Shown: positions 11,288 to 28,795 of the stretch, piece by piece
Numbering within the stretch: position 1 is the stretch's first letter
Layout: the number at the start of each line of letters is the position of its first letter
DNA from: Anaerolineae bacterium
GTDB taxonomy: Bacteria > Chloroflexota > Anaerolineae > Anaerolineales > Villigracilaceae
NCBI GenBank assembly: GCA_017303655.1
Contig: JAFLCE010000028.1
Span: 1 to 42,826, forward strand
Direction: 5' to 3'
DNA: 42,826 nt
Notes under the pieces: generated by a model
Database searches by the model: none
The model's input: the letters and a program-made list of their open reading frames with translations, nothing else
What the model was told of the DNA's origin: nothing
Program-made: the position numbers and the translations under genes

Positions 11288-12286
11288 TTAATCTCTTTCA
11301 AATGGAACACCCAATGCCGCCGGTGGCGATGCCCGCATGGCGCGCAGCAGCTTGGACAGGAATTTACGGGTCGTTTCTGGCATGGCAGCCAACGTCCGTT
11401 CCACCCATTCGGCGTTGCCAATGTTGACAAGCAGCAGTGTGAGAATCATCAATGGGAACGGTGCGACTTGCAGAACTTGCGACGGAACCGCCGTGAAGAC
11501 GGATTGCAAGACCAATCCCAACCATTGCAAGAAGGCGAAGAGATACGCACCAAAAGCAGCTCGAGCGGGATTCCAACCGCCGAAGATGGTGATGGAAAGG
11601 GCGATCCACCCGATTCCATCCAAGCCGGAAATTGTTCCCATCCATCCGGCACGGACACCCAGTGAGTAGGCTGGTCCTGCCAACCCGATCAACGCACCGC
11701 CGATGACAGTGTACACATACCGCATCACAGTGACGTTCGCACCGCGGATGTAAGCCGCCGCCGGTTTCTCGCCAATGCCTTGCAACATCAATCCAGGGCG
11801 GGTGCGATAGATCCACAACCAGGCGAGAAAAATAGCAAGGAAGCTGACGTAAGTAATAACCTCCTGACGAAAGAGAAGCGGACCAAGGATGGGCAAGTCT
11901 CTCAACACAGGGATGGGAGCCGCCTGCAAGCGCGGACCCGGCACGCCCATAAACGGGTTACCGAGGAAGTAGGCTAGGTCACGGCAAGTGAGTGCAAGCA
12001 CGAAGCCAATCGCCACTTGAGATTGTTTAAGGGTAATACTGGCGAATGCTACGATCAAGGCGACAAGCCCGCCGATCAACATCCCGGCGAGGAAACCAAG
12101 TAGTAAACTGTTTGTAGAATAGGCAACCGCAAAGCCGCTCATTGCTGTCAGAAGGATCGTGCCATTCATAGACAAGTTGATGACACCTGCACGCTCGGAG
12201 AGCGTCTCACCCATGACCGCAAATACGATCGGAGCTGCCGCAGCCAGCACGCCCGCCAAACCAACGAGAAGGGTTTCTTGATTCAT
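11288..12286 (-). CDS. nucleoside ABC transporter permease (NupQ/YufQ-like)
   Basis: 332-residue inner-membrane permease of the branched-chain/ribose/nucleoside class, with about 9-10 membrane segments. MGETLSERAGVINLSMNGTILLTAMSGF near the N-terminus and SGLDGIGWIALSITIFGGWNPARAAFGAYLF are typical of permeases paired with BMP-type nucleoside-binding lipoproteins. The start has GAGG 6 bases upstream, 7 bases after the preceding permease stop. It is the last gene of the importer set, distal to lipoprotein, ATPase and first permease. Nucleobase or nucleoside import fits the purine catabolic genes on the same strand. Confidence 0.9.
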   Translation of the reverse strand: MNQETLLVGLAGVLAAAAPIVFAVMGETLSERAGVINLSMNGTILLTAMSGFAVAYSTNSLLLGFLAGMLIGGLVALIVAFASITLKQSQVAIGFVLALTCRDLAYFLGNPFMGVPGPRLQAAPIPVLRDLPILGPLLFRQEVITYVSFLAIFLAWLWIYRTRPGLMLQGIGEKPAAAYIRGANVTVMRYVYTVIGGALIGLAGPAYSLGVRAGWMGTISGLDGIGWIALSITIFGGWNPARAAFGAYLFAFLQWLGLVLQSVFTAVPSQVLQVAPFPLMILTLLLVNIGNAEWVERTLAAMPETTRKFLSKLLRAMRASPPAALGVPFERD

Positions 12287-12293
12287 AAATGCC

Positions 12294-13331
12294 TCATACC
12301 TTCTTTACGAATTTTTGACGAACGCCTTCAGTCAGCAGGACGAACAAGACCAACACACCCTGTAACACGCCTGATAACGAAGAGTCCAACTTCAAAACAA
12401 TCGGCAACTGAATACTGCCAATATTGAGAGCCGCAAAGAACAAAGCCACGGGGATCGCCCAGATCGCCTGATAATTGATCAGCATTGCCACCATCAAACC
12501 AAGATAACCATATCCACTTGAGATGGATGGGATCAGGCGATAATAAACGGCAGTCACTTGCAATGCCCCGGCAACACCTGCCAATGCACCGCAGATCAGA
12601 AATGAATAAAGCGAGTACTGCCAGGTGGGTATGCCTAGCAAATACGCCGCGCGGATATTTTTGCCAACGGCTTTGATCTTCAAACCAAAGTAGGTGCCGT
12701 TCAAAATGAAATAGACGATCACAATCGCAACCAGCGCAATGACCAAAGCATAGGGACTGATACGCAAGTCTGGGATCTGCGGCAGAGAAAAGGCTTCTGG
12801 AAAAGGCTCTGTCCCGCTCATGGATGCGACGCCTTCGCGCTTCCATGGACCGAAGATGAGGTACAAGGTCAACGCCGTGGAGACGAAGTTCAAACCCAAA
12901 CCGCCGAAGATCTCATTCACACCGCCAAAGGTTTTCAACATACCTGCAAAAGAAGCCCAAATGGCACCCGTGATCATTCCGCCCAAAATAGCCAATGTGA
13001 TGATGATCGCCGGGGAGATGGTGCTATCTACAAATTGGCGCAAGACCCAAACGGTACCGATCGCGCCTAATACGATCTGACCTTCCACACCGATATTCCA
13101 TAATCCGGCTGAAAAGGTAATGAGCAAACCTGCCGTTACTAGCAGCAATGGCACGAAAGAGACCAATACCTCTGCAAATTTACGCGTCGAACCGATAGAC
13201 CCTTTGAGCATGTTCGAAAATGCATCCAAGGGAGAGGCTCCAACTGCTACGAGGATCAGAGAGACAAACCCCAGCGCCAGCACAAAGGCGATCAACTGAA
13301 AAACGAAGCCGCTCATTCGAGACTTAAGCAT
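12294..13331 (-). CDS. nucleoside ABC transporter permease (NupP/YufP-like)
   Basis: 345-residue permease, partner of the next gene. The N-terminal pattern (GASPLDAFSNMLKGSIGSTRKFAEVLVSFVPLLLVTAGLLITFSAGLWNIGVEGQI) and the middle GTYFGLKIKAVGKNIRAAYLLGI are characteristic of the NupP side. About nine membrane segments. The ATG lies 8 bases inside the ATPase gene with GGAGG 5 bases before it, so translation is coupled. The two unlike permeases should form a heterodimer with the duplicated ATPase. Confidence 0.9.
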   Translation of the reverse strand: MLKSRMSGFVFQLIAFVLALGFVSLILVAVGASPLDAFSNMLKGSIGSTRKFAEVLVSFVPLLLVTAGLLITFSAGLWNIGVEGQIVLGAIGTVWVLRQFVDSTISPAIIITLAILGGMITGAIWASFAGMLKTFGGVNEIFGGLGLNFVSTALTLYLIFGPWKREGVASMSGTEPFPEAFSLPQIPDLRISPYALVIALVAIVIVYFILNGTYFGLKIKAVGKNIRAAYLLGIPTWQYSLYSFLICGALAGVAGALQVTAVYYRLIPSISSGYGYLGLMVAMLINYQAIWAIPVALFFAALNIGSIQLPIVLKLDSSLSGVLQGVLVLFVLLTEGVRQKFVKKV

Positions 13332-14817
13332 GAGAGCCTCCTTCAGCGGGCCAACCTTTGCCGCCGATCAATTGCCCCAACTGCTCAACACTGGTAGCCG
13401 TTGCATCAATGGGCGCAGAAACTTTACCGCTGAAGAAGACCAGAAGGCGATCGCTATATTGCAAGACTTCCTCCAAGTCTGACGAGATAAAGATGATCGC
13501 TGCGCCATCTTGCTTGCAACGATCTTTAAGTTTGCTCCAGATATAAATGACCGATTCAATGTCCAAGCCGCGCGTGGGGTGCTCCAACAAAACCAGTGAC
13601 AATGGAGTTTGCAACAATGCCAACTCTGCACGTTGCTGATTACCGCCCGAAAGCGACTCGACAGTGCTGGTAGGTGTACCGCGGATATTAAAAGATTTGA
13701 TGCAATCTTCCGCCAAGCGTTGACCATAGGCTTTGTCAATGAAAACGCCCTTCGGCTCTTCCGCCAGGACGAAGTGATCGGTCAGGCTCAAGCCGGGCAC
13801 CAAGCCTTCTTCCAGTCTTGCGGCGGGAAGGAAGTTGACGCCCTCATGTTTAAAGGCATGATACGGCTTGCCGGTCAAATCCTTGCCTTTGAGAAGCACC
13901 TTCCCACCAACGGGGCGTACTAAACCTGAACACGCTCGCATGAACATGCCTTGCCCGGAACCTTCCAACCCAGCAAGCCCAACAACTTCACCGGCGCGTA
14001 AATCGAAGTTAATATCATTGATCTTAAGGCGTGTATCTTCGAGAGAAACATGCTGCAGCGAAAGGACAGTATCTCCTGTCACCGCAGGCTGCCGCTCACC
14101 CAATGTGACGGCTTTGCCGAACATCATCTCCACCAGTTTTGGTGTTTTATATGGCGGCTTCATCTCGCCCACCAATTCACCGCCGCGCAAGACGGCAACC
14201 TGATCACACAGACTTTCCACATCCTCAAGCTTATGCGAGACAAAGATGACGGTCATGGCTTGTTCGGGGAATTTTTTAAGCGTAGCAAATAATTTTTCTT
14301 TTTGTATGGCGCTAATACCGGTTGTCGGCTCATCTAAAATAAAGATACGTGCGCCAAGGAATAATAATCGCATGATCTCCAATTGCTGGCGTTCGCCAAC
14401 CGTTAGAGAATCCACGTAATTTTCTGGGTCAAATGAAAAGCCGTATTCTTTTGCCAGCAGGTTGAAATCTTGTGTGGCATTTTTACGATTTGGGAAAAAA
14501 GAACCAGGAATGCCTAGTAAAAAATTATCCAGGATCTTCATCGGCGGAAAATCCAGTGGGTCCTGATGCAACATCCCCACGCCATAGCGAATAGCACTGG
14601 CGGGAGAATCCATAAAGACGGGTTTGCCGTCTAATAACACTTCACTGCCGGGATCCGCCTGAATAAACCCGGAAAGGATTTTCATCAGGGTGCTTTTGCC
14701 GGCACCGTTTTCCCCCAAAATACCCTGAATCGTTCCGGAAGGGATCGTCAGGTTTATGCCTTTATTGGCATGGGTCTTTCCGAAATGTTTGTGAATATTC
14801 TTGAGTTCAACGTTCAT
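13324..14817 (-). CDS. nucleoside ABC transporter ATPase, two ABC domains (NupO/YufO-like)
   Basis: 497 residues with two ATP-binding cassettes. The first has Walker A GENGAGKST (about 34-42), signature TVGERQQLE and Walker B IFILDEPTT. The second has a degenerate P-loop region (GLEGSGQG) but a good signature LSGGNQQRAEL and VLLEHPTRGLD. This asymmetry is normal for sugar/nucleoside ABC ATPases of the RbsA/YufO type. It energises the two downstream permeases. An upstream hairpin terminator separates it from the binding-protein gene, probably lowering its expression relative to the lipoprotein. Confidence 0.93.
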   Translation of the reverse strand: MNVELKNIHKHFGKTHANKGINLTIPSGTIQGILGENGAGKSTLMKILSGFIQADPGSEVLLDGKPVFMDSPASAIRYGVGMLHQDPLDFPPMKILDNFLLGIPGSFFPNRKNATQDFNLLAKEYGFSFDPENYVDSLTVGERQQLEIMRLLFLGARIFILDEPTTGISAIQKEKLFATLKKFPEQAMTVIFVSHKLEDVESLCDQVAVLRGGELVGEMKPPYKTPKLVEMMFGKAVTLGERQPAVTGDTVLSLQHVSLEDTRLKINDINFDLRAGEVVGLAGLEGSGQGMFMRACSGLVRPVGGKVLLKGKDLTGKPYHAFKHEGVNFLPAARLEEGLVPGLSLTDHFVLAEEPKGVFIDKAYGQRLAEDCIKSFNIRGTPTSTVESLSGGNQQRAELALLQTPLSLVLLEHPTRGLDIESVIYIWSKLKDRCKQDGAAIIFISSDLEEVLQYSDRLLVFFSGKVSAPIDATATSVEQLGQLIGGKGWPAEGGSHA

Positions 14818-14854
14818 GGGCGGTCAGGATCCTCCATGATGGAAGTATATAAAA

Positions 14855-14884
14855 TGCAGGGGCGCGGTGTGCCGCGCCCCTGCA
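14855..14884 (-). terminator. intercistronic GC-rich hairpin, partial terminator
   Basis: Perfect 13-bp stem (14855-14867 with 14872-14884; arms contain GGGGCGCGG), loop TGTG, followed on the minus strand by TTTTATAT. It lies between the binding-protein gene and the ATPase gene of one importer, a position typical of attenuating terminators that give excess binding protein. Confidence 0.85.
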
Positions 14885-14897
14885 AATGGGACAAACG

Positions 14898-16109
14898 TTA
14901 TTCGGAAGCGCTCAAGCCTTCCATGCCTTCGAGCAGTTGCGGCAGGTACCAGACCTGCTGGTCAGAAGCAACTTCCCCGTCGGCGAGGTAGGCGGTGCCG
15001 TCCTGCAAGTTGACAGGACCGGTCCAGAGGTTAAGTCCGCCAGCGAGTTCGGCGATGAATTCATCCAAGACAGCGGCATCATCAGCGGCGAGTGCGGGAC
15101 CCTTCTCGAAACCAACAGCAGACGTATCGAGGTTGTTGATGTTCGCCCAATCGGGTCCAACCCAAAGGAATGTAGACTGCCAAGAGCCATCCTGTGCGGA
15201 GGAGATCGCCTTCACATATTCCGGACCCCAGTTGAAGTACGGAACGCCCAAGCAGACATCAGGGGCAGCGGTACAAGCAGCGACATAGTCGTACGCAACG
15301 CCAGAGACAGCTTTGCCTTCGGCTTTGAGCTTGGCAGCTTCGCCGAGGTTGACAGGGTTGTCGATACCGGAGATGACAACATCATAATCAGTGGTGTAGA
15401 AGTCGTTGGAGACCTGAACGGGGTCGAGGGTCACACCGGGGATGTTGAACCAGAAGCCAATCCAAGTAACTTTGAATTCGAGAGAAGCAGGATCATTACC
15501 AGCCTTCTCATAGCAATACTTCGCGCCAAGGTAGGCGGAGGCAGCCAAGCGGCGGGTTTCATCGTTGATCAACGGTCCAAGATAACCGATCTTGCCGGTT
15601 TCAGAAGCGAGGGCGGCGGCGCAACCACCCATCATCTTGCCGTATTCCATGCGACCCATGATGTTCATGAGGTTGGGGATCTCTTCGTAGGCTTTGCCAT
15701 CCGGCCAAACCTGATCGCCAGACGCCATGATTACCTTTACATCAGGATTCGCCTTGGCAAACGTGGTGGAAGCATCCTTCATATCATCTGAGTTGAAGAT
15801 GATGAGCTTAGCACCCTGTGCAACCAATTCTTCAGCAAGCTGGTCGGGGGTGGTGCCAGGGCGGTCGGCGGGGTTGACCTTGTCTAAATAGAGCATGGTC
15901 GCGCCGAGTTTTTCTTCCACATACTTACCGGCTTCATAATGAGCCTGGCTCCAGCCGTTGTCGTTGTACGGACCAACAAGCAATATACCAAACACAAATG
16001 GTTCACCAGAGGCGGCTTCTTCTGTTGCGGCAGGTTGACCACCACAAGCAGAAAGGACAAACATCAGGACCAACGCCATTACGGCGAGGCGGGTAAAAAT
16101 TGTACGCAT
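14898..16109 (-). CDS. BMP/PnrA-family nucleoside-binding lipoprotein
   Basis: Substrate-binding lipoprotein of 403 residues. The signal peptide has a lipobox LSAC (19-22), so Cys22 is the lipidated residue, followed by an acidic, Ala- and Gly-rich linker. The mature part has the BMP opening (FVFGILLVGPYNDNGWSQAHYEAGKYVEEKLG), then KLIIFNSDDMKD and MGRMEYGKMMGGCAAALASETGKIGYLGP. ATG at 16109 is chosen because AAGGAG lies 7-8 bases upstream and it begins a proper signal peptide; an in-frame TTG at 16154 is rejected. PnrA-like proteins bind purine nucleosides, consistent with the locus. A GntR-type inverted repeat lies in its promoter region. Confidence 0.92.
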   Translation of the reverse strand: MRTIFTRLAVMALVLMFVLSACGGQPAATEEAASGEPFVFGILLVGPYNDNGWSQAHYEAGKYVEEKLGATMLYLDKVNPADRPGTTPDQLAEELVAQGAKLIIFNSDDMKDASTTFAKANPDVKVIMASGDQVWPDGKAYEEIPNLMNIMGRMEYGKMMGGCAAALASETGKIGYLGPLINDETRRLAASAYLGAKYCYEKAGNDPASLEFKVTWIGFWFNIPGVTLDPVQVSNDFYTTDYDVVISGIDNPVNLGEAAKLKAEGKAVSGVAYDYVAACTAAPDVCLGVPYFNWGPEYVKAISSAQDGSWQSTFLWVGPDWANINNLDTSAVGFEKGPALAADDAAVLDEFIAELAGGLNLWTGPVNLQDGTAYLADGEVASDQQVWYLPQLLEGMEGLSASE

Positions 16110-16177
16110 ATTTCTTCTCCTTTGAATATAGGTTGACGAGACTGACAGGGGCAAATTGGCGTCGAACCTCCTTTCAG

Positions 16178-16216: not shown

Positions 16217-16232
16217 GAAAATAACAAAACCG

Positions 16233-18245
16233 CTAAGGCTGACACTCAAACTCTCGGGTTGCATCACCCACTGCAGAAACCTGCTCGGGCACACGCTCCG
16301 TTTCACGCTCGATACGATCCCACAACTTACACAACAACGGACCCACAAATGCCTTCGACACTTTATAAGATGCCTGCGACAATTCTACCGCCTTTTCCCA
16401 ATCGCCCGTGTGAGCAAATCCTTCAATATAAACAAAACGCTCCACAGGGTCATTTGGTGTGTCGTTCAATTCAAATGCCAGATCAGCAATGCGGATGACT
16501 TCGTCCCAATCTTTTTTCTGACGTGCCAACTCTGCCTGCTCAAAATAACTGCACCAGTCTGAATCAGCGGCTCGATATAACCCAGCCGGTAACTGATTCT
16601 GTTTCTCAAGCAGAATCACACTCTGATTCGACGCCCAGACCGCATCGCGCACCGCAGGTGGCAACAGACGATTATCCGCTTCCACTTCCACGTCGATCAC
16701 ACGAAAGCAACCCGGCGGCTCGAAGTTGACAACGAGGATGTTATCCGTATTCCCATAAAACGTCGGACCGATGTAATACAGCTGATGCGGTAGACCGGGC
16801 TCGATACTGGGCAAGGTCTTACCCACGCGAATGGATGCAAAGTACAACATCACGTTCATTTCGCCCGACGGACTGTATATCCAGTTTAGCGGGCCCGTCA
16901 AAGAATTATCAGAGTAATATGTCACTGGAATGTCATTAGATAATAGGATGGTGCCCGGCACTAAACCGGGAATCCGCTCGCTCATTTGGGTAAACAATTC
17001 CTGCTGAGTCAGCCAATCTCTGCGATAGATATCCTCCAACTGAAAGTGACGGCTGCCAGCAAAGCCAACCAACAATGTGATCAGGATCAATTGCACACGC
17101 TGATTTTTTATCAATGCGACCAAACAAGCCAGCAAAATGCTTGACCCTAGCATGAATGGCAGCATGAAACGGTCTTGCGAAAAATTGAACTGAGGGATAT
17201 TGCCGATCAACCATACGGATCCGCCAGACAAACCCCAAAAGACCAGCCCCACCCAACCAGCCTGGCTTGCAAAGTCACTGCCGTTCGAGTCTTCTACTTT
17301 ATACGCGAAGAGATAACTCCCAGTGATGAGAATGCCCACGAATAACAGGATCAACATCAAAGACAGGGTGAGCGGTCCAAATCCGGTAGTGCCAATGGTG
17401 AGAAAAGGCAACAGCCAAGCTTCAAATACGGTACGCCAGAAACTGAGCAGGATTTGATTCAGGAAGTATAAGATCCCGGCGAAGAAATCCGCTTTTATTT
17501 TGTCTAATAGAACATAGGAATAACTAGCGTTCTGGAACTCGAAGAAGAACATACGCCAAAACGTAATGCCGAAAAAGATAGCCAGATAAGGCAGATAATA
17601 GAGAATAGTTTTTTTTGCACGCTCTTTAAAGTTACCCGGTAGGAGTTGATAAAAAAGCACCAGCCGTCCAAATTCGATAAAATAAAAATATTCCATCGTC
17701 AGCAAATTAACTGCAGCCAATAAATAGGATGCCGCAAAATAGAACCAACGTCGTTTTTCATCTTTGATAGCAAGGATGGAAAAATAAAGCGACAACAAAA
17801 ATGCCGAAAGCACAATATAGAAATGACTGTACATCAAGGCGATAAATTGTTGCCCCATGCCGGGGTAGACAAGGAAGAATAAACTTGCCCACAAAGCAGG
17901 TTTGGGATGCGCCGGATACATGGCACGCAAAATCTTCCAAAGCAATACGGCGGTGACCCAACGCAAGAGAATGGCAAACAACTGCCACGCCCATGGGTTC
18001 GCACCGATAATGGGTAAGGTTAACTGATAGATCATGCCCCAAAACGGACGGCTGGTCGTGAAGGTCTTGGTTAGCATGGCAGGACCTAGACGATAATAGA
18101 TCCAAGCCCAGGGGAATTCATCCCAATAAAAGCCGCGCTGCCAAAAGAATAAGACATAGGTCAGCGCGGCAACCAGCAGCAAGAACCAGACCGTACTGCG
18201 CGGAGTGAATTGGATGTTGTTCAAACGGTCAGTTATTTTTTTCAT
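16233..18245 (-). CDS. large multi-pass membrane protein, possibly GT-C glycosyltransferase-like, with C-terminal helical repeats
   Basis: 670 residues: about 11-12 membrane segments up to residue 420, then an extracytoplasmic part. The first external loop carries RGFYWDEFPWAWIYYRLG, an acidic DE pair in the place where GT-C enzymes keep their catalytic aspartate. The C-terminus (about 570-660) has two TPR-like helical pairs (AELARQKKDWDEVIRIADLAFEL and EGFAHTGDWEKAVELSQASYKV). The substrate is unknown; envelope glycosylation is a guess from topology. The start has no good Shine-Dalgarno. Its place between importer and carbamate kinase is not explained by function. Confidence 0.78.
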   Translation of the reverse strand: MKKITDRLNNIQFTPRSTVWFLLLVAALTYVLFFWQRGFYWDEFPWAWIYYRLGPAMLTKTFTTSRPFWGMIYQLTLPIIGANPWAWQLFAILLRWVTAVLLWKILRAMYPAHPKPALWASLFFLVYPGMGQQFIALMYSHFYIVLSAFLLSLYFSILAIKDEKRRWFYFAASYLLAAVNLLTMEYFYFIEFGRLVLFYQLLPGNFKERAKKTILYYLPYLAIFFGITFWRMFFFEFQNASYSYVLLDKIKADFFAGILYFLNQILLSFWRTVFEAWLLPFLTIGTTGFGPLTLSLMLILLFVGILITGSYLFAYKVEDSNGSDFASQAGWVGLVFWGLSGGSVWLIGNIPQFNFSQDRFMLPFMLGSSILLACLVALIKNQRVQLILITLLVGFAGSRHFQLEDIYRRDWLTQQELFTQMSERIPGLVPGTILLSNDIPVTYYSDNSLTGPLNWIYSPSGEMNVMLYFASIRVGKTLPSIEPGLPHQLYYIGPTFYGNTDNILVVNFEPPGCFRVIDVEVEADNRLLPPAVRDAVWASNQSVILLEKQNQLPAGLYRAADSDWCSYFEQAELARQKKDWDEVIRIADLAFELNDTPNDPVERFVYIEGFAHTGDWEKAVELSQASYKVSKAFVGPLLCKLWDRIERETERVPEQVSAVGDATREFECQP

Positions 18246-18298: not shown

Positions 18299-19252
18299 CT
18301 ATGGAACAATCCAGGTACCCGTTTCGCCTTTGAGCGCGCGCCCGATATTTTCGGGGTTGGTGATGAGAGCTTTACCATTTGGCATGGCTTCGAGATACCA
18401 AATAATCGCTTGAATCTTTGGTGCCATGGAGCCTTTAGCAAAATGTATTCCTTCTGCCAGATAAGCTTTGGCTTCGGCAAGAGTGATCTGGTCTAACCAT
18501 TTTTGTTCGGGCTTGCCAAAATTAATGGCAACTTTCTCAACAGCCGTTGAAATGACAAATAAATTAGCGCCAATAGAGCGCGCTAGCAATGAAGATGCAT
18601 AATCTTTGTCAACCACAGCTGCTATGCCTTCATAATTCCCATCACCCGGGTCAATCACTGGAATACCGCCGCCACCTACTGTAATAGTGACGATTCCTTT
18701 TTCCAACAAGGTCTGGACGGTTTCCAACTCCACGATCTCTTTGGGTTGCGGAGAAGCGACTACACGCCTCCACCCACGCCCGGCATCTTCCACCACAGAC
18801 CAACCTTGTTCTTGCTGACGGCGTTCCGCTTCTTCCTTTTCCATAAAGCTGCCAATGGGCTTGGCTGGTTTGGAAAACGCCGGGTCATTTTTATCTACCA
18901 AGGTTTGGGTAATGACCGTAACGACCTTCTTCTTGATACCACGCTGGTAGAGAATATTCTGCAAATTTTGTTGAATGGCATATCCGATCGCGCCTTGGCT
19001 ATCTGCACCGCATACATCTAAAGGAACTTCGTGCATTCCAGCCGTTTTAGCAGCAATTTCAGAACGGCGCAAAATATAGCCAACCTGCGGACCATTGCCA
19101 TGCCCGATGGCGACGTCCCAACCTTGTTCGATCAGATCGGCAATATGCAAACAGGTTTGCTTTGCCGCCTGATATTGGCTTTCTACGGTCACGTTCTTAT
19201 CGTCAATAATGAGCGAATTACCACCAACGGCAATGACTGCGAGTTTGGTCAT
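18299..19252 (-). CDS. arcC: carbamate kinase
   Basis: 317-residue amino-acid-kinase-fold enzyme. It makes ATP from carbamoyl phosphate and ADP, releasing CO2 and ammonia. Diagnostic stretches are VAIGHGNGPQVGYILRR, VDKNDPAFSKPAKPIGSF, ITVGGGGIPVI and KGSMAPKIQA near the C-terminus, all normal for ArcC/YqeA. Ribosome site AAGGAG lies 7 bases before the ATG. In fermentative purine or arginine breakdown this is the energy-conserving last step, paired with a transcarbamoylase. Here the transcarbamoylase gene is the next functional gene upstream, separated by the repeat and four-helix-bundle cassette. No arginine deiminase is present, which favours a purine or ureido-compound source. Confidence 0.95.
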   Translation of the reverse strand: MTKLAVIAVGGNSLIIDDKNVTVESQYQAAKQTCLHIADLIEQGWDVAIGHGNGPQVGYILRRSEIAAKTAGMHEVPLDVCGADSQGAIGYAIQQNLQNILYQRGIKKKVVTVITQTLVDKNDPAFSKPAKPIGSFMEKEEAERRQQEQGWSVVEDAGRGWRRVVASPQPKEIVELETVQTLLEKGIVTITVGGGGIPVIDPGDGNYEGIAAVVDKDYASSLLARSIGANLFVISTAVEKVAINFGKPEQKWLDQITLAEAKAYLAEGIHFAKGSMAPKIQAIIWYLEAMPNGKALITNPENIGRALKGETGTWIVP

Positions 19253-21475: not shown

Positions 21476-22675
21476 TTATTTGATCAAACTGGGCAAGATC
21501 GCGTAGAACTCCGTTGCCTTGACCACATCATCCAGCGAAACAGAATCGTTGACGGTGTGTGCTGTCTCTTCATCGCCGGGACCAAAGCCGATGGAAGGAA
21601 TTCCAGCCTTGCCAGCCCAGTAGATGCCGTTCGTAGAGAAGTTCCATTTGCCGGGTTTCGCTTCGGGCAAGCCGATCATAGTGCGAGCTTCCTGCCCAGC
21701 CTGCACCAGCGGATGATTTTCTTCATACGCCCACGCCGGGAAGTATTTATCGACTGGGAAGACAAAACCAGTATAGGAAGGCTCATCGTAGAAGAGTTCT
21801 TCCAATTTGACCGTGTCTTTAAATTCGGCAGGGATCAGATCTTCGACCTGCTTCTTAACCGCTTCTTTTGTTTCGCCGAAGGTCATGCGGCGATCAATGT
21901 AAATGATGGCTTCATCGGGCACAGCATTGATGGACGGTGTCTTGACATGCATATCACTGACTGTGATCTTGCCGTGACCAAGAAATTCATGGTCACCCAG
22001 TTTCGGCTCCAAGTCACGGATGCCTGCGATGATCGGCAAAAGTTTATAAATGGCATTATCCCCAAGATGATTGCTCGCCGCGTGCGCCGATTTGCCCTTG
22101 GCAGTCACTTTCATTTCGAGGCGACCTTTGTGACCACGGTAGACCAGCATTTTGGTCGGCTCGCCAATGACGACGAAATCTGGCTTGATCTGTGGATCTA
22201 CTTCTACGAAGGTATTCGGTGCAATACCATCACACCATTCTTCCATGTTGCCAAAGTAATAGACCGTCCAACCATCCAGCAAGCCGAGGTCGCGCGCAAT
22301 TGCAAGTCCGTAGATCATGCCCGGGGTGCTATTCTTTTCATCGCAGGCACCGCGCGCATAAAAAATCCCGTCCTCTACTTTGCCTTTGAAGGGATCCCAT
22401 TGCCAAGAAGATGGGTCACCAATGCCAACCGTGTCAATATGTGAGTCATACACCATCACACGTTTGCCATTGCCAATGCGACCGATGGTATTGCCCATCT
22501 TGTCAAAACGGACTTCATCGAAGCCAAGTTTCTTCATCTCAGCTTGAACGCGCTCACCCACTTCGCCGATCTTTGAATCCATCGAAGGGATGGCAACAAT
22601 ATCACGCATGAATTCGATGATATCTTCCCGCGAACCTTCCACGCGTTTTTGGATTTCTTTTGATTTATCTGTCAT
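21476..22675 (-). CDS. YgeY-like M20 family hydrolase
   Basis: 399-residue di-zinc M20 hydrolase. Metal ligands and base are visible: DSHIDTVG (His and Asp), RGACDEKNS (bridging Asp), GNMEEWCDG (Glu pair, with the EExCDG pattern seen in YgeY), VIGEPT and GPGDEETAHTVND (final His). The lid domain includes GHKGRLEMKVTAKGKSAHAA. M20 enzymes cleave amide, carbamoyl or peptide bonds; the YgeY branch is usually linked with ygeW, ygeX and purine catabolism genes in enterobacteria and clostridia. Here it shares a strand with the YgeW-like enzyme, carbamate kinase and purine deaminases. AAGGAG is 7 bases upstream of the ATG. ArgE/DapE-like activity is the alternative. Confidence 0.87.
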   Translation of the reverse strand: MTDKSKEIQKRVEGSREDIIEFMRDIVAIPSMDSKIGEVGERVQAEMKKLGFDEVRFDKMGNTIGRIGNGKRVMVYDSHIDTVGIGDPSSWQWDPFKGKVEDGIFYARGACDEKNSTPGMIYGLAIARDLGLLDGWTVYYFGNMEEWCDGIAPNTFVEVDPQIKPDFVVIGEPTKMLVYRGHKGRLEMKVTAKGKSAHAASNHLGDNAIYKLLPIIAGIRDLEPKLGDHEFLGHGKITVSDMHVKTPSINAVPDEAIIYIDRRMTFGETKEAVKKQVEDLIPAEFKDTVKLEELFYDEPSYTGFVFPVDKYFPAWAYEENHPLVQAGQEARTMIGLPEAKPGKWNFSTNGIYWAGKAGIPSIGFGPGDEETAHTVNDSVSLDDVVKATEFYAILPSLIK

Positions 22676-22723: not shown

Positions 22724-23437
22724 TTAATGACCTACTCTTCTCACAATATGGAAGTGGAAATACCCAGGGATAAAATAGCTCAACGAATAATCCACGATCT
22801 TGCCTTCGGTGTTGAACAACTGGGCATGGAAGTGCAGCAGCACATCGCCGCGTTGGATCTCCATTGGCTTTGCCACATCTGCTGTGGCGCCAATAGCGCT
22901 GACATTCGCGCGGGAAGAGGTCAGAGAATCGCCGCGACTCAGCAAAAAGTCCAGCACCGAGCCGTGGAAGTCTGAGGGCAGGTCTTTGGCGTGCAACACA
23001 TCTTCGGGCAGCGTGTCCACGAGATAAGCGACGGGGCGGCTCTCGGCACGGATGACCCGGCGAACCCGCGTAAGCTTTGCGCCGACGGCGACATTCAAGA
23101 ACGAAGCCATGTCTTCATCAGCCACAGTGGACTCGATGTTCAGATCGCTGACCGACACTTCAAGTCCTTGTCGCTTAGCGATGGTTTCGAGACTCTCCAA
23201 CACTTCAAGCCCGCCATCCAGTGCTTGCACCTTGCCAACTACGAAAGTCCCAGAACCCTGTCTGCGGCGAATGAGTCCTTGCGTTTCAAAAGAACGCATT
23301 GCTTCACGCAAAGTAGCGCGCGAGACACCAAGTTGTTTTGCCAGATCAGGCTCAGAGGGTAACCTTGAACCAGCGGGCGTCTTGTTGATCAAAGTCGCCA
23401 GGTCTGCCTGCAATCGTTGAAAAGGGAAATTTGCCAT
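22724..23437 (-). CDS. GntR family transcriptional regulator, HutC/UTRA type
   Basis: 237 residues: an N-terminal winged helix (about 5-70) with GSRLPSEPDLAKQLGVSRATLREAMRSFETQGLIRRRQGSGTFV, and a C-terminal UTRA ligand-binding domain (about 90-235) ending in the usual SLSYFIPGYFHFHIVRR. Such repressors respond to small metabolites of the pathway they control. The gene lies 10 bases after the adenine deaminase gene and in front of the YgeY-like gene, so it is embedded in the catabolic operon and likely autoregulated with it. Candidate binding sites of GntR type are at 16178-16189 and 28864-28874. A purine or purine-derived effector is inferred. Confidence 0.92.
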   Translation of the reverse strand: MANFPFQRLQADLATLINKTPAGSRLPSEPDLAKQLGVSRATLREAMRSFETQGLIRRRQGSGTFVVGKVQALDGGLEVLESLETIAKRQGLEVSVSDLNIESTVADEDMASFLNVAVGAKLTRVRRVIRAESRPVAYLVDTLPEDVLHAKDLPSDFHGSVLDFLLSRGDSLTSSRANVSAIGATADVAKPMEIQRGDVLLHFHAQLFNTEGKIVDYSLSYFIPGYFHFHIVRRVGH

Positions 23438-23447: not shown

Positions 23448-25238
23448 TTAATCTTCCAACACTGGGATGAAATCGAACTGGGTCACATCGACCAGACCCT
23501 TATCAGAAATTCTCAACTCAGGGATCACCACCAACCCCAACAAACTCAATTGCATATTCGGGTTATTCAATTCACTGCCGCACATCTTGAAGCCTTCCAA
23601 CACGGTCGCGGCTTTCTTTGCCACCACATCCGCACGCTCAGTAGACATCAACCCGGCAATTTGCAATTCCACCAAGCCGATCACATTACCATCCAACACC
23701 ACCACCTGACCACCACCGCATTTCAATAGCTCATTCGCGGCAACCGCCATGCTGGCTTCATCCGTGCCAACCACGATCATATGATGGCTGTCATGCGCCA
23801 CCGTTGAAGCAATGGCACACTTGCGGGTAAATTCAAAACCACTCGTCAACCCAACCACTACCTTACCCGTCGCACGATGCCGTTCTACCAACGCGATCTT
23901 GGCAAGATCACGCTTTATATCCACTTTGACTTCGCCATCCTCAGCCTTGACCATCATCTTTAGATGACGAGTCGGCGCCTGATTCTCGATCACCCCGATG
24001 ACATGCGCCTCAACTTCCGCGCCGGTAGCTGCTCTTGTCCGAAGGATAAAATCTTCAGCTGTGAGTTTTCTCTTCATCTTCACAGACTTGGTTGCCCATT
24101 GCGGATATTTCACCACCGGCAATTTGACCTGCCATTCGCCGCTCTCAGCAATGACTTGTCCCTTGGCGATGACCAGGTCGGCTTTGAAATGCATCAGATC
24201 TTCCACCAGCAAAATATCTGCCCAACGACCGGGAGCGATCATGCCCATCTCTTTGCTCAAGCCAAAATGCTCAGCGGTGTTGATGGTCATCATCTGGATC
24301 GCCGTCATGGGATTCAGTCCCTCGCTCACAGCGTGGCGAAGGACTCGGTCCATGTGACCTTCTTCGGTTAAGGTTGCGGCGTGTGAGTCGTCAGTGACGA
24401 GGAGGAAGCGGCGCGAGTCCAATTTTTTTTCGGTAATGGCTTTGACTTGCGCAGCAACGTCGAACCAAGCCGAGCCATAACGTAACATGGCTTTCATCCC
24501 CTGGCGGACTCTTGCAATCGCATCTTCCATGCGCGTGCCTTCGTGATCATCTTCCGCGCCGCCAGCCACATAACCGTGAAAAGGCAAACCGAGATCGGGC
24601 GAAGCGTAATGCCCGCCTATAGTTTTGCCCGCCGCATGCGTCGCGGACATTTCATCGAGCATCTTTTTGTCGCTCATGAAAACGCCGGGGAAGTTCATCA
24701 TTTCACCCAAGCCGATGATGCCTTTCCATTTCATCGCCTCGGCAACTTCTTTCGGTCCGATGGATGAACCGGGAGTTTCCAATCCCGGCGCGGATGGCAC
24801 ACAAGACGGCATTTGCACCCAGACGTGAATGGGTTGTTTTTGGGCTTCATCCACCATGAGCTTGACGCCTTTGAGACCAAAGACATTCGCGATCTCATGC
24901 GGGTCGATGAACATGCCGGTCGTGCCACGCACTGCCACCGTCCGCACAAATTCAGTCACCGTCACCATGCCCGACTCAACGTGCATGTGACCATCGAGCA
25001 AACCGGGCACGAGATATTTTCCTTTAGCATCGATCACTTTGGTCTTCTTACCGATCGTATGGCTGGCGTCGCGCCCCACAAAAGCGACCCGCCCTTGCAC
25101 GACAGCAATATCGATATTCGGGATGATCTCCCCCGATTGCACACTGACCCACTTGCCGTTCTTTATAACAAGGTCGGCATGGGCGCGCCCCATGGCAACA
25201 TCAACTAGCGCCGTGGTAAGTTTGGTGGAAGGTGTCAT
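23448..25238 (-). CDS. ade: adenine deaminase
   Basis: 596-residue amidohydrolase of the Ade family (COG1001-type), which deaminates adenine to hypoxanthine. The metal site begins with GLLDGHMHVES (His84, His86), followed by DPHEIANVFG, GEMMNFPGV, GGHYASPDLG and LLVTDDSHA. The C-terminal domain contains the conserved VAHDSHH and LGLVVIPELRISDKGLVD-type ending. 596 residues is the usual length. The GHYASPDLG stretch replaces the more common GHAPG, so it is a somewhat divergent member. AGGAGA lies 6 bases upstream of the ATG. It fits a route from imported adenine or adenosine to hypoxanthine and xanthine; no xanthine dehydrogenase is in the window. Confidence 0.9.
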   Translation of the reverse strand: MTPSTKLTTALVDVAMGRAHADLVIKNGKWVSVQSGEIIPNIDIAVVQGRVAFVGRDASHTIGKKTKVIDAKGKYLVPGLLDGHMHVESGMVTVTEFVRTVAVRGTTGMFIDPHEIANVFGLKGVKLMVDEAQKQPIHVWVQMPSCVPSAPGLETPGSSIGPKEVAEAMKWKGIIGLGEMMNFPGVFMSDKKMLDEMSATHAAGKTIGGHYASPDLGLPFHGYVAGGAEDDHEGTRMEDAIARVRQGMKAMLRYGSAWFDVAAQVKAITEKKLDSRRFLLVTDDSHAATLTEEGHMDRVLRHAVSEGLNPMTAIQMMTINTAEHFGLSKEMGMIAPGRWADILLVEDLMHFKADLVIAKGQVIAESGEWQVKLPVVKYPQWATKSVKMKRKLTAEDFILRTRAATGAEVEAHVIGVIENQAPTRHLKMMVKAEDGEVKVDIKRDLAKIALVERHRATGKVVVGLTSGFEFTRKCAIASTVAHDSHHMIVVGTDEASMAVAANELLKCGGGQVVVLDGNVIGLVELQIAGLMSTERADVVAKKAATVLEGFKMCGSELNNPNMQLSLLGLVVIPELRISDKGLVDVTQFDFIPVLED

Positions 25239-25255
25239 ACAATCTCCTGAACGAA

Positions 25256-26833
25256 TTAATTGCCAACTCGCTGGATATATCGTTCCAGCAAATAATTATA
25301 TTGACCGGTATTGAACTTCCATATCTCGGTCATGCGGTTCCAATCGTTCAACGGACCAGCAACAATAACTTGCAGTTTTTCATAGTATAAGGCGAGGTCT
25401 GGGTCTGCGATCTGGTTTTCGCCCGTTCCCAAGGTCTCAAGATAACCATCCGGAATTTCCCGTTCAAAGTGCCCGATCTCCCATTCCGAAACAGGGAGGC
25501 GTGCCAGCAAGGGATCGGACAAAGCATAGGAATCGATCACAAAAACGTTCGGTCCTTTTTTATAGCCGGGCTTACCCAGTGCCTCGGCAACATACACTTC
25601 TTCAAAACCGGTAAAGCGCCATTGGTTCCCAGCAAATGGTGAACCCCATTCAAATTCACGAAAACCATTCTCGACTAGGCTATTGTATTGACCCTTACGG
25701 TCATTGCCGAAATATTCCAAGCGCTGATCTGAGATGGCGTTGCGGTCGCTGATCGGATATTCAGGCAGGGCTGCTACCATGTTCGAAGACCAAAGCGGCG
25801 AACGGAGGGAAAATACTCCCAATAAAAGTACAACTGCCAAAGCCGTCCATTGATGCATCTTGACAGTTAGCAGACTGGAGGCAATCACTACAGAGACAAG
25901 CAATGGCGCCGAGAAGAAGCGGCTGCTGAAGAAATCTCCGCCAATACGCACTATATATGCCAGATAAAACAATACACCGATAAACAGAAGCATGTATTTT
26001 CTAGCCGGTTCAAAATACAAGGCTACGCCAGCCAATAAAATTCCAAAGATCGTGATCGTATCCCAGTTGATCGCATTCAAAAAATAATCAACCCCTTGAA
26101 GCATCATCAGGGAATCTGAAATACCTGTATTTAATTTTGCATAGGCGGTATTCGGAAAAAGAAAGCCGAAATAGAACAACGAAAACACTTCCCAGATCAG
26201 CATGGGAAGAAAACCCACAAAGACTTTAAAAGCAGCTTGCTTACGCTGACTGGACGTCCACCAGGCGTAGCCTAGTGCCGGTGCGATTATCAGAAAGGCA
26301 TCAATACGATTAAGCATGATCAGAGATGAAATGAAAGACAAAAGCAGTATGTTCGGCTGCTCGGCAAGGAAGACTATGATGAAGACCACCAACAAAAGAT
26401 GGGTCAATGGGTTTTCCAAGCCGGAGGTGGAAAAATCAATAAAGCCGTTCGAGAGACTTAACACCAAAACTGCCAACCCAAGTGATAAAGGATCAGGCTT
26501 TGAGATGTGGGTCAATAACAGGAAAACGGTCAGAACAGACAGCAGAATGGATAAAAAGAATGTAATGTAAAACAAAGCGTTGGGGACGCTGGGTAGGAAC
26601 AATCCGCTCACAAAATATACCAACGCGATCAAGAATAACCACAAGGGATGCGTAAACGCCTGCACACGCACAAAGGGGTTATAGCCCAGCCCATACCCCG
26701 CCAGAAAATTCTCAACCACGCGGAATGTGATGATGCCATCATCTGAGATCCAGGCATTGCGAATCACCAACAGCAGGTATAAGCCTAGCAGCAGGGCGAT
26801 CACAACTCTGGTTTCTTTTTGCAAATGCTTCAT
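25256..26833 (-). CDS. multi-pass membrane protein, GT-C type glycosyltransferase-like
   Basis: 525 residues with about 11 membrane segments, then a soluble C-terminal part after residue 330. The first external loop reads AWISDDGIITFRVVENFLAGYGLGYNPFVRVQAFTHPLW. The DD pair, ITFR and the GxGLxYNP pattern match GT-C polyprenyl-phosphate-sugar transferases of the AftB/arabinosyl class. Likely role: transfer of a lipid-linked sugar outside the membrane. ATG at 26833 is preferred over the TTG just before it. Although it lies between ade and the kinase gene with short gaps, its relation to purine metabolism is unclear. Confidence 0.8.
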   Translation of the reverse strand: MKHLQKETRVVIALLLGLYLLLVIRNAWISDDGIITFRVVENFLAGYGLGYNPFVRVQAFTHPLWLFLIALVYFVSGLFLPSVPNALFYITFFLSILLSVLTVFLLLTHISKPDPLSLGLAVLVLSLSNGFIDFSTSGLENPLTHLLLVVFIIVFLAEQPNILLLSFISSLIMLNRIDAFLIIAPALGYAWWTSSQRKQAAFKVFVGFLPMLIWEVFSLFYFGFLFPNTAYAKLNTGISDSLMMLQGVDYFLNAINWDTITIFGILLAGVALYFEPARKYMLLFIGVLFYLAYIVRIGGDFFSSRFFSAPLLVSVVIASSLLTVKMHQWTALAVVLLLGVFSLRSPLWSSNMVAALPEYPISDRNAISDQRLEYFGNDRKGQYNSLVENGFREFEWGSPFAGNQWRFTGFEEVYVAEALGKPGYKKGPNVFVIDSYALSDPLLARLPVSEWEIGHFEREIPDGYLETLGTGENQIADPDLALYYEKLQVIVAGPLNDWNRMTEIWKFNTGQYNYLLERYIQRVGN

Positions 26834-26853
26834 CAAGACTTCATCCGCTCCGG

Positions 26854-27414
26854 TTAGTGATAACTTCCTTTGGTTAATTCAATATCGTCCAAGGGACGGA
26901 TATCAACTTCCTCTTTTTGCACGAACGTTAAAACGTTCGCGTAATTTTGTTCCAACGAATTTACACTATCAACGAACAGTGCTGTATCGAACTGCCATGC
27001 TAGAAAATGCGTGCGCTGGCGTTCGATTTGTTTCCAGTCTGCCGCATTGTGCGCGGAGTCTTCAAAGCGTTTGATCACACGTTCCTGCCAGATGTCTTCA
27101 TCAGACACATAGGTATAGATCGGGCGAAAGCGGACATTGTACTTTCGCGCCAACGACTGGGCATGATGGCGGTCTGTGTTCATGAAAACGGAGTCAACGA
27201 TCACGCTCAGACTCAGTTCGAGCTGTCTCTCTGCCAACCCAAGCAGGACCGTCACCTTTGAGTCCCAGAACTGGACATTCGGATTTTCGGGCAGCTCACC
27301 CACCACATCATCGATACCCAAGTAAGGGACTTGTAATTCGCGAGACAGCCGCTTTGCAAGGGTTGTCTTGCCGGTACCAGGCAGCCCTGAAAAAATGACG
27401 AGTGTCTGAGGCAT
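26854..27414 (-). CDS. P-loop kinase (AAA_33/zeta-like fold)
   Basis: 186 residues. The Walker A motif GLPGTGKTT is at 10-18, with a probable lid arginine region (VIKRFEDSAHNAADW) and a substrate-side DSVFMN segment near 70. This is the small-molecule kinase fold also seen in zeta toxins, gluconate kinase and chloramphenicol phosphotransferase. No antitoxin is beside it. The gene starts 1 base after the stop of the amidohydrolase gene, so they are co-translated, suggesting a phosphorylation step in the same pathway, perhaps of a nucleoside. That is inference. Confidence 0.82.
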   Translation of the reverse strand: MPQTLVIFSGLPGTGKTTLAKRLSRELQVPYLGIDDVVGELPENPNVQFWDSKVTVLLGLAERQLELSLSVIVDSVFMNTDRHHAQSLARKYNVRFRPIYTYVSDEDIWQERVIKRFEDSAHNAADWKQIERQRTHFLAWQFDTALFVDSVNSLEQNYANVLTFVQKEEVDIRPLDDIELTKGSYH

Positions 27415-27415
27415 G

Positions 27416-28795
27416 TTACCCAGCCAGCAATCGTTTGGCGGCTTTGTTATGCTTTTCGATCAACTTGCCCTGATCTACGGTCACGAGTTGACCTTCTTTC
27501 ACAACGAACTTGCCGCCGACCACGGTGTAATCTGCATTGAAAGATTGACCGAACACCACAGCCGCGACGGGGTCATGCATGCCAGCATAGCCGAGCTTAT
27601 TCAAGTTGATCGCGAAGAAATCAGCACACTTCCCACTTTCCAAGCTACCAATATCTTTGCGTCCGAGAACTGCTGCACCGCCGCGTGTGCCCAAATGCAA
27701 GGCTTCGCGGGCCGTCATCAATTTTCTATTTGGATCATTGGAAAGGGAATAGCCCGTCAGTCCTTCTTTGACTCGCGAGACGAGCATGGCATTTCGCACT
27801 TCTGCAAGGAGATGCGAGCCATCGTTCGAGGCGGAACCGTCCACGCCCAAGCCAACGTTGACACCGGCTTGGCGATATTCCTTGATGGGAGCGATGCCTG
27901 ACGCCAAACGCATATTCGAGGTGGGACAATGCGCCACGCCGCAGTTATGCTTGGCAAAGACTTGAATCTCTTCATCATTGACCCAGACCGCATGCGCAAA
28001 CCAGACATCCTCCCCCACCCAGTCCACTTGTTGCATATATCCGACGGGGCGATGACCGAACATCTGCATACAGAATTTTTCTTCGTCTTCGGTCTCGGCG
28101 AGATGCGTATGCAGATGCACGCCATATTGACGTGCCAACTTTGCAGACTGTTTCATCAAATCTGATGTGACGCTGAACGGCGAGCAAGGCGCAAGCACGA
28201 CTTGAGTCATCGCGCCGGGTTTGGCGTCGTGATATTTTTCAATGAGACGTTGGGAGTCTTTGAGGATGTTCTCTTCGGTATCGACGACGCTATCAGGTGG
28301 CAGACCACCTTTGGATTCGCCGAGGCTCATCGAGCCGCGAGAAGCTTGCAGCCTGACCCCAACTTCGAGAGCTGCAGCAATTTCATCGTCAAGTTTGGAT
28401 CCGTTGGGAAAGAGGTAGAGATGGTCTGAGGCGGTGGTACAGCCCGAGAGGGCGAGTTCTGCCAGTGCTGTTTGAGTCGACATAAAAATATCGTCGGGGT
28501 TTAATCGCGCCCAAATGGGATAGAGAGTCTTGAGCCAGTTGAAGAGGTTGGCATCTTGCGCGGCAGGGACGGCGCGTGTGAGGGTTTGGTAAAAGTGATG
28601 ATGGGTGTTGACCAAGCCTGGCAGGACAACATGCCCTTTGAGGTCGAGCACTTCATCGGCGGTGGTTGGCAGATCAGCGATCTGCCCTACTTGTTCGATA
28701 AAGCCGTCGCGGATAAAAAGACAGCCCTCGGGGATTTCCCGCTGGGCGTTGTCCATGGTGACGATATATGCGTTTTTGATGAGGAGAGTTGTCAT
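27416..28795 (-). CDS. 8-oxoguanine deaminase-like amidohydrolase (TrzA/AtzA/SsnA group)
   Basis: 459-residue metal-dependent deaminase. Metal and catalytic residues: NTHHHFYQT (His65-67), HTHLAETEDEE (His229, His231, Glu234), WFAHAVW (His268) and GLGVDGSASND (Asp319). The stretch HHFYQTLTRAVPAAQDANLFNWLKTLYPIWARL matches the 8-oxoguanine deaminase branch rather than SsnA or guanine deaminase. Expected reaction: 8-oxoguanine to urate plus ammonia, with related aminopurines or pterins possible. It is the first gene of the minus-strand run and has a good promoter with an inverted repeat at the start point. No strong Shine-Dalgarno precedes the ATG. Confidence 0.86.
   Translation of the reverse strand: MTTLLIKNAYIVTMDNAQREIPEGCLFIRDGFIEQVGQIADLPTTADEVLDLKGHVVLPGLVNTHHHFYQTLTRAVPAAQDANLFNWLKTLYPIWARLNPDDIFMSTQTALAELALSGCTTASDHLYLFPNGSKLDDEIAAALEVGVRLQASRGSMSLGESKGGLPPDSVVDTEENILKDSQRLIEKYHDAKPGAMTQVVLAPCSPFSVTSDLMKQSAKLARQYGVHLHTHLAETEDEEKFCMQMFGHRPVGYMQQVDWVGEDVWFAHAVWVNDEEIQVFAKHNCGVAHCPTSNMRLASGIAPIKEYRQAGVNVGLGVDGSASNDGSHLLAEVRNAMLVSRVKEGLTGYSLSNDPNRKLMTAREALHLGTRGGAAVLGRKDIGSLESGKCADFFAINLNKLGYAGMHDPVAAVVFGQSFNADYTVVGGKFVVKEGQLVTVDQGKLIEKHNKAAKRLLAG

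Follow-up and report, generated by a model that had tools for sequence, protein, structure and literature searches.

The DNA analysed here (the window) is a stretch of 42,826 nucleotides from an Anaerolineae bacterium (Chloroflexota; Anaerolineales; Villigracilaceae; GenBank assembly GCA_017303655.1, contig JAFLCE010000028.1), corresponding to contig C94 of a draft genome, G000, of 4.6 Mb in 172 contigs (93.55% complete, 5.82% contaminated). Our subject is a run of genes on its minus strand, in which a YgeW-like carbamoyltransferase and a carbamate kinase lie together with purine deaminases and an importer. All genes that the initial annotation had named between positions 11288 and 28795 are long open reading frames (ORFs) on the minus strand; interspersed among them are two membrane proteins, a P-loop kinase, a histidine phosphatase and a 23S_rRNA_IVP four-helix protein, which it had left unnamed. 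With gene families judged against curated NCBIfam cut-offs and domains against Pfam cut-offs, the features are as follows.

28880..28908, minus strand: promoter-like site TTGACA-17-TACACT with a TG extension, 5' of oxoG; score 10/12, the joint top with three sites sharing this score, a match that alone is not evidence of function
28864..28874, no strand assigned: palindromic operator TTGTC-N-GACAA, an exact copy, directly 3' of the -10 element
27416..28795, minus strand: oxoG, 8-oxoguanine deaminase-type amidohydrolase, the first gene of the operon (677.8 against a cut-off of 532)
26854..27414, minus strand: small P-loop kinase, seen in few relatives (profile match)
25256..26836, minus strand: multi-pass membrane protein, seen in few relatives (profile scan)
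23448..25238, minus strand: ade, adenine deaminase (501 against a cut-off of 472.5)
22724..23437, minus strand: GntR/UTRA regulator (gntR), the presumed reader of the operator (GntR and UTRA domains above Pfam cut-offs)
21476..22675, minus strand: YgeY hydrolase, presumably cleaving off a ureido group (491.9 against a cut-off of 321.5)
20938..21462, minus strand: histidine-phosphatase-fold protein, a variable passenger (profile match)
19903..20883, minus strand: YgeW-like knotted-type carbamoyltransferase (profiles, alignment and tree)
19345..19851, minus strand: 23S_rRNA_IVP four-helix protein, a variable insertion (profile match)
18299..19252, minus strand: arcC, carbamate kinase, forming ATP from carbamoyl phosphate and ADP (375.2 against a cut-off of 358.25)
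16233..18245, minus strand: multi-pass membrane protein, a frequent though inconstant neighbour (profile scan and neighbourhoods)
14898..16154, minus strand: BMP/PnrA-type binding lipoprotein of the importer (above the Pfam cut-off)
14855..14884, minus strand: terminator-like hairpin of 13 pairs, 11 of them G-C, in the gap between the BMP gene and the ATPase gene
13324..14817, minus strand: ABC importer ATPase (profile match below cut-off)
12294..13331, minus strand: ABC importer permease 2 (profile match below cut-off)
11288..12286, minus strand: ABC importer permease 1 (profile match below cut-off)
9967..11235, minus strand: ThrC-like (threonine-synthase-like) pyridoxal phosphate (PLP) enzyme, conserved at the end of the locus and lying outside the coordinates of the initial annotation

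The importer had been called a nucleoside importer. While its binding protein is indeed BMP/PnrA-like, the ATPase and the two permeases match sugar and putative B6 importer models only with scores below cut-off, and the label "nucleoside" thus comes from the BMP/PnrA family. The strong hairpin 3' of the BMP gene has the layout expected for excess production of a binding protein, which it might serve.

A search for relatives of the carbamoyltransferase gave 463 pattern matches, of which 363 were confirmed; the best 80 of these 363 form the set of named relatives, and 61 genomes (labelled G, with G000 the window's own) form the family comparison, with L labels denoting individual loci. Because named and other loci overlap (e.g. 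L085 and G028), as do some of the stretches among themselves, the loci counted do not each represent an independent organism. By their titles, the best 80 of the 363 relatives are Chloroflexota, mostly metagenome-assembled genomes of Anaerolineales but including the isolate Anaerolinea thermolimosa IMO-1; the sole Pseudomonadota-titled entry is L058. The order recurring in the family genomes and in Anaerolineae is oxoG-ade-gntR-[ygeY]-[ATC2]-ygeW-arcC-BMP-abcA-perm2-perm1-(xdh)-thrC, where ATC2 is a second carbamoyltransferase treated below. In the named loci with enough flank, arcC follows ygeW within 3 kb in 60/64; importer genes follow in 33/50, and 5' of ygeW lie oxoG in 35/48, ade in 28/48 and gntR in 37/48. 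The arrangement is therefore not due to chance, and related genomes do keep together genes whose separation the initial annotation had named as grounds for giving up its proposal. A carbamoyltransferase of the window type (at least 65% identity) is encoded by 55/61 family genomes, counting a contig-edge fragment in G005. The A. thermolimosa locus (L067) reads oxoG-ade-gntR-ygeY-ygeW-arcC-importer, and G003, G010, G028 and G039 carry a further xdh inside the window-type locus. We regard the membrane proteins, the kinase, the phosphatase and the IVP gene as passengers, since their presence varies between loci, and the importer occurs as two sequence types at the same position, one near the window's and the other approximately 25-40% identical. 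In L207, L211 and L041 the IVP gene is inserted at differing positions of the operon.

The carbamoyltransferase had been called YgeW-like. It scored below the curated cut-offs of the YgeW models (227.1 against 453 and 215.7 against 500; TIGR03316/PRK07200) as well as of the ornithine carbamoyltransferase (OTC) models (269.5 against 306 and 268.5 against 280.85). In a tree of 23 sequences it grouped with YgeW and acetylornithine carbamoyltransferase (AOTC; support 99/94), apart from the ornithine enzymes included. Its placement as sister to YgeW had a support of 81/87, and an alternative in which the window family plus its 48% paralogues form a group with AOTC that leaves out YgeW could not be rejected (p-AU 0.177). 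The carbamoyl-phosphate motifs STRT and HP-x-Q are kept over 114 relatives and, by our reading of that alignment, the window family and Escherichia coli YgeW have in common QC-x-x-HP-x-Q, WAY-x-x-SY-x-KP-x-SVPQ, Y-x-KSW and MH-x-LPAD. SMG is the ornithine motif of OTCs, and it was not found in the alignment of these 114 window-type relatives.

Table 1 of Barba et al. 2013 (PMC4016543) gives H[AVC]LP for YTCase and S[LM]RT and HP[LC]Q for AOTCase; the window motifs STRT, HPFQ and HCLP fit the YTCase row of that table and not its AOTCase row. Moreover, YHPFQ is present in 96/100 distinct relatives. The top matches by sequence in the PDB are the OTCs 1pvv and 1a1s, and the family profile gives AOTC 248.6 bits, slightly more than the 243.2 bits of the YgeW-type 3q98. 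With N-acetylornithine carbamoyltransferase (PDB 3kzc and relatives) the window enzyme shares the clade and a Y-A-K-S-W-G stretch; by contrast, it has HPFQ instead of HPCQ, is shorter and has another gene context. Besides staying with its neighbours in relatives, the window gene is accompanied in the genome by a separate OTC-type gene on G000:C83, which adjoins a gene that by eye encodes an ornithine aminotransferase. We infer that the window enzyme carries out a YgeW-type phosphorolysis of a ureido acid.

The palindrome TTGTCNGACAA is present in 60/62 oxoG upstream regions; in the window it is located just downstream of the TTGACA-17-TACACT promoter-like site. Exact matches to it number 100 in 2.8 Mb, against 1 in mononucleotide shuffles. 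In a scan with a 15-mer matrix, the operator was detected 5' of oxoG (65/72), of PALP17, a PLP enzyme encoded on G000:C129 (12/30), and of a PydA-like gene paired with SsnA (4/8), as well as of GT2 (4/22), BMP (4/74) and other ORFs (21/961). Because the matrix was built from oxoG sites, the oxoG score is by construction; the scores of the other genes are not. The 12 PALP17 sites represent 11/12 family genomes scanned, G000 included, with L149/L150 being one gene and G037 the miss. In the named loci, no operator was found directly before PALP17, and L067 and L101 have one before a GT2-PALP17 pair. As part of the overall explanation given below, which we hold to be likely as a whole, the GntR regulator would bind TTGTCNGACAA and thereby control both the operon and PALP17.

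Xanthine dehydrogenase, YgeX and hydantoinase had been noted as lacking. This holds for the window, and for YgeX also for the genomes compared; by contrast, the G000 genome encodes an XdhD-type enzyme, another enzyme of the xanthine dehydrogenase family, HyuA and SsnA, and some relatives have xdh within the locus itself. SsnA (C107:108637-109959; 494 bits against a cut-off of 455.5; above cut-off in 53/61 genomes) shares a same-strand run with NADPH-F420 reductase, CofE, a nitroreductase-like protein, CofD, CofC and an LLM-class F420 enzyme, in which NADPH-F420 reductase, CofE, CofD and CofC are all above their cut-offs. The LLM enzyme is 76% identical to that of L055 and below the cut-offs of the models that it matched; it sits in the SsnA operon and may stand in for a YgfK or UacX reductase, for which the search covered the GltD-PreA-like fusion treated below. 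HyuA is encoded on C51 (504 against a cut-off of 393.25; above cut-off in 52/61 genomes). The two enzymes of the xanthine dehydrogenase family were found by PF02738 on C131 and C17. The C131 enzyme is 39.4% identical to E. coli XdhD and 36.1% to XdhA, scores 702 bits against TIGR03313, below the cut-off of 1101.9, and bears the insert and the Glu of XdhD E606, both missing from E. coli XdhA and from the C17 enzyme. E606 has been suggested to be important for making 2,8-dioxopurine, according to the part of Li et al. 2025 (PMC12507026) drawn on here. Relatives of the XdhD type are present in 54/61 genomes, and by eye the contig of the XdhD-type enzyme also encodes a YgfM-like subunit binding flavin adenine dinucleotide (FAD) and an XdhC-like protein.

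Two side observations concern SsnA. A GltD-PreA-like fusion, resembling PydA of pyrimidine degradation, is paired with SsnA beside F420 genes in L131, L133, L135, L141, L142, L143, L144 and L146. Moreover, a second compact cluster with SsnA-like, HyuA and LLM genes is present in L137/L138 (G003:C26) and L139 (G029:C53); that of G003 adds Fno, CofC and a 44% YgeW-like paralogue, that of G029 adds xdh, and both adjoin genes that by eye encode an AOR-type oxidoreductase, a corrinoid methyltransferase and an ECF-type transporter. This second cluster may serve a different heterocycle.

In some relatives, the two halves of the presumed pathway are joined in a single cluster. In L052, L055, L070 and L077, the genes immediately after LLM are ygeY-ygeW-arcC; SsnA comes next in L052, L055 and L070, and the contig of L077 ends at this point. 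L066, L088, L089, L091 and L109 have the order ygeW-arcC-thrC-PALP17-SsnA with some genes interspersed; after SsnA come NADPH-F420 reductase in three of these loci (L066, L088, L091) and CofE in two (L066, L091). Across the family, LLM and SsnA (both present in 44 genomes) lie within 20 kb in 34/34 same-contig genomes, and LLM and XdhD (both present in 46) within 30 kb in 13/17 same-contig cases.

As a substitute for YgeX we favour PALP17, with the ThrC-like enzyme second. PALP17 lies within 12 kb of HyuA in 27/29 same-contig cases (both present in 50 genomes). The ThrC-like enzyme was set aside as first choice, as it passes the threonine synthase cut-off (185.9 against 167.1) and has the operator directly 5' in 0/47. 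In its favour, it lies in the locus and is absent together with the locus in G004, G007 and G042. G000 has another threonine-synthase-like gene (C54, 33%). In L066, L069, L078 and L079, a threonine-dehydratase-like gene is located directly before ygeW, which connects yet another PLP enzyme, the third, with the pathway.

The reactions of the reductive uric acid pathway have been reported for E. coli enzymes, with HyuA from Clostridioides difficile, in the same part of PMC12507026. Like the E. coli cluster described there (xdhD-ygfM-ygfK-ssnA-hyuA-ygeW-yqeA-ygeY-ygeX), G000 has an XdhD-type enzyme, SsnA, HyuA, YgeY, a carbamate kinase and a YgeW-related enzyme, and by analogy a ureido group would be conserved as carbamoyl phosphate. 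Unlike that cluster, the G000 genes are spread over at least four contigs of a draft, in which the window operon is a unit separate from the SsnA-F420 operon; an F420-type LLM reductase would take YgfK's place, YgeX is missing, the importer is of the BMP-type ABC class, the operon includes adenine and 8-oxoguanine deaminases, and the YgeW-like enzyme is short and below its family cut-off.

In total, the window probably encodes the import, the front-end deamination and the final stage, with ureido cleavage and ATP formation, of a reductive, F420-dependent purine/urate pathway, the middle of which is encoded elsewhere in the genome. We infer the substrates, the order of the reactions and the direction in which the carbamoyltransferase works. 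The BMP-type ABC importer would take up a nucleoside or base; adenine deaminase would give hypoxanthine, and a xanthine dehydrogenase encoded elsewhere together with the 8-oxoguanine deaminase would lead to urate. The XdhD-type reductase (G000:C131) would convert urate to 2,8-dioxopurine, which the F420H2-dependent LLM reductase (G000:C107) would dearomatise in YgfK's place, and SsnA (C107) and HyuA (C51) would open the rings to give 2,3-diureidopropionate. The YgeW-like enzyme of the window would then phosphorolyse one ureido group to carbamoyl phosphate, from which ArcC would make ATP, and YgeY would hydrolyse the other. Finally, a PLP enzyme other than YgeX, with PALP17 favoured and the ThrC-like enzyme second, would convert 2,3-diaminopropionate to pyruvate and ammonia, with the operon and PALP17 controlled by the GntR regulator at TTGTCNGACAA. 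The order of ureido cleavage is called unsettled in the part of PMC12990295 drawn on here. The earlier proposal of a variant energy-yielding purine pathway in Chloroflexota is borne out in part and remains the best reading. The operon is real and widely conserved; that it serves a variant of the reductive purine pathway is, on context, shared operator and active-site evidence, what we consider likely.

Several observations weigh against this reading. The carbamoyltransferase fails the curated YgeW cut-offs, and 49/100 distinct relatives have HPLP instead of HCLP, which is outside the YTCase motif. YgeX was detected in 0/61 genomes at E 1e-20, with a control search positive in E. coli. The LLM enzyme is present in only 46/61 genomes. 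F420 synthesis also needs FO synthase, and the biosynthesis genes covered, CofC, CofD and CofE, make up only part of that route. G000 lacks the 832-aa PydA-like reductase (a GltD-PreA-like fusion), which 13/61 genomes have, two of them as fragments. The operator was found directly 5' of SsnA in 0/27, of HyuA in 0/8, of XdhMo in 0/12 and of LLM in only 1/24, and HyuA was not seen in the single-cluster loci joining both halves. G004, G007 and G042 (98-99% complete) keep SsnA, LLM and XdhD but have neither the window carbamoyltransferase nor the ThrC-like enzyme nor PALP17; conversely, G053 (91% complete) and G019 (100%, with 7% contamination) have the window locus and lack LLM and an SsnA above cut-off, with G053 also lacking XdhD. 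Because the halves have been lost independently in these five genomes, they are not obligately coupled. Finally, HyuA and SsnA could serve other heterocycles.

These uncoupled losses speak for the possibility, which we regard as unlikely, that the locus in the window breaks down some other ureido or hydantoin compound, with SsnA, LLM and F420 belonging to a separate pathway, e.g. pyrimidine degradation. HyuA as a dihydropyrimidinase-family enzyme, and the PydA-like fusion beside an SsnA gene in 13/61 genomes, would fit such a separation; however, purine deaminases stand at the start of the operon, both halves are united in single clusters, and in 4/8 loci the PydA-like-SsnA pair shares the operator with the operon.

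Quite improbable in our view is an oxidative route, in which uricase and allantoinase would lead to allantoate, the carbamoyltransferase(s) would phosphorolyse allantoate or ureidoglycine as in Rubrobacter xylanophilus, and YgeY would be a ureido hydrolase. The part of PMC4016543 drawn on here does show a pseudo-ATCase that phosphorolyses allantoate next to a carbamate kinase. Moreover, the window has genes that by eye look O2-linked, for a P450, an RPE65-like oxygenase and an Sco-like protein. Together with genes read by eye as encoding a photolyase and carotenoid-type proteins (window positions 33609-37366 and 3-5984), they suggest an organism that meets oxygen and light, which is unusual for a pathway known from anaerobes. 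F420 chemistry should be more oxygen-tolerant than the iron-sulphur enzyme YgfK, and the O2-linked-looking genes would in this sense favour the F420 route. Against the oxidative route, HyuA of G000 scores 223 bits against an allantoinase cut-off of 357.85, relatives have SsnA and LLM genes in one cluster with ygeW, and no uricase-type gene was recognised by eye in the neighbourhoods, a genome-wide search for uricase, HIU hydrolase and OHCU decarboxylase not having been made.

Least probable is that the carbamoyltransferase is an arginine-pathway enzyme (acting on ornithine, N-acetyl- or N-succinylornithine, or working catabolically with carbamate kinase in a route by arginine deiminase) with incidental purine neighbours, as the OTC matches in the PDB, the slightly higher AOTC profile score, the Y-A-K-S-W-G stretch, the unrejected AOTC grouping and the HPLP variant would allow, while the position outside the OTC clade, the missing SMG, the fit to the YTCase row, the prevalent YHPFQ and the separate OTC-type gene argue against it, and no arginine deiminase was recognised by eye in the neighbourhoods, with no genome-wide search made for it.

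Returning to the reductive, F420-dependent pathway, ATC2, a paralogue of aspartate carbamoyltransferase, adjoins ygeW in 30 of the 55 family genomes with the window carbamoyltransferase; it was not found in G000. ATC2 passes the aspartate carbamoyltransferase cut-off (TIGR00670), is distinct from PyrB in trees, and most of the same genomes also hold PyrB. In 34/34 sequences, R229 and Q231, which we take to be the aspartate-binding residues of aspartate carbamoyltransferase, are replaced by P and T/S, the exact facing residue being alignment-dependent owing to an insertion there. These 34 sequences also have S80R and P266S, with the carbamoyl-phosphate residues intact. By contrast, PyrB of the family keeps all four (R229, Q231, S80 and P266) in 10/10, while at K84 ATC2 has Y and the same PyrB sequences have a gap.

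Of the 55 genomes, 23 have YgeY only, 16 both (G017 among them), 14 ATC2 only and two neither (G005, in which the contig starts inside ygeW, and G035, which is 85% complete). The 14 ATC2-only genomes have no YgeY of at least 62% identity, and their operon runs gntR-ATC2-ygeW in each; the 20 genomes with a YgeY of at least 81% identity, G000 included, have no ATC2. Two of the 30 ATC2 cases are imperfect, G026 being cut by a contig end and G017 having a fused, truncated frame. The pattern gives a Fisher p of 0.0024 with kinship ignored; on a quick tree without the fused G017, there are 7 YgeY changes and 7 ATC2 changes, with a median p of 1 in the independent-pairs test. Because this last test shows nothing, a replacement of YgeY by ATC2 is suggestive only, hinting that ATC2 may do YgeY's job and conserve a second carbamoyl phosphate. 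In the named loci L075, L081 and L103, neither YgeY nor ATC2 was recognised beside ygeW. In G017 (C39; L197), the ORF at 6068-7399 on the minus strand (444 aa) joins ATC2 residues 1-182 to YgeW-like residues 102-326, representing either an assembly artefact or two genes fused naturally through a deletion.

ATC2 resembles the pseudo-ATCase 3 of PMC4016543 (HSLP, VXP) in having HSLP and a V/I-Q-P stretch; like the pseudo-ATCases in the part of that paper drawn on here, it keeps the carbamoyl-phosphate residues, has lost R229/Q231, and adjoins a ygeW-like gene and a carbamate kinase. The enzyme tested there, the R. xylanophilus pseudo-ATCase phosphorolysing allantoate, differs in subgroup (HPLA) and in having allantoate as substrate, while a Nocardioides pseudo-ATCase adjoins ygeW and, as a single case, is the nearest precedent for the tandem pair. 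Tentatively, and with some doubt, we extend the F420-dependent reductive pathway as follows: lineages with the tandem pair might phosphorolyse both ureido groups, with ATC2 replacing YgeY, to yield two carbamoyl phosphates and two ATP per purine, and PALP17 under the same operator might replace YgeX. The window genome, being a YgeY-only case, would gain one ATP.

PMC12507026 had already pointed out that, in Chloroflexota, a putative F420-dependent dehydrogenase (PF00296) is encoded near SsnA; the SsnA neighbourhoods described there have the same SsnA-LLM association, and the F420 idea is that paper's. Our comparison goes beyond the part of that paper drawn on here in describing F420-biosynthesis genes, a separate locus of the window type, a regulon, a candidate substitute for YgeX and tandem carbamoyltransferases. 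Among the matches listed in a search of titles and abstracts of the open-access PMC literature, none dealt, for Chloroflexota, with the split locus, the regulon or a tandem of carbamoyltransferases. It was not until 2025 that the reductive urate pathway was elucidated, and this in gut and clostridial bacteria; our observations suggest that a version built on F420, with its own regulon and a different last step, is widespread in a large group of environmental Chloroflexota. They supply named candidates for three points, i.e. the dearomatising enzyme, the YgeX substitute and a second ATP-conserving carbamoyltransferase. Moreover, Chloroflexota genes annotated as ornithine or aspartate carbamoyltransferase may be purine enzymes.

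Finally, on contig G000:C171 (L220), the thrC, perM, GT2, MATE, P450, carotenoid and photolyase genes are 87-96% identical to those at window positions 1-11235. The G000 bin thus probably mixes two strains, which fits its contamination of 5.8%.

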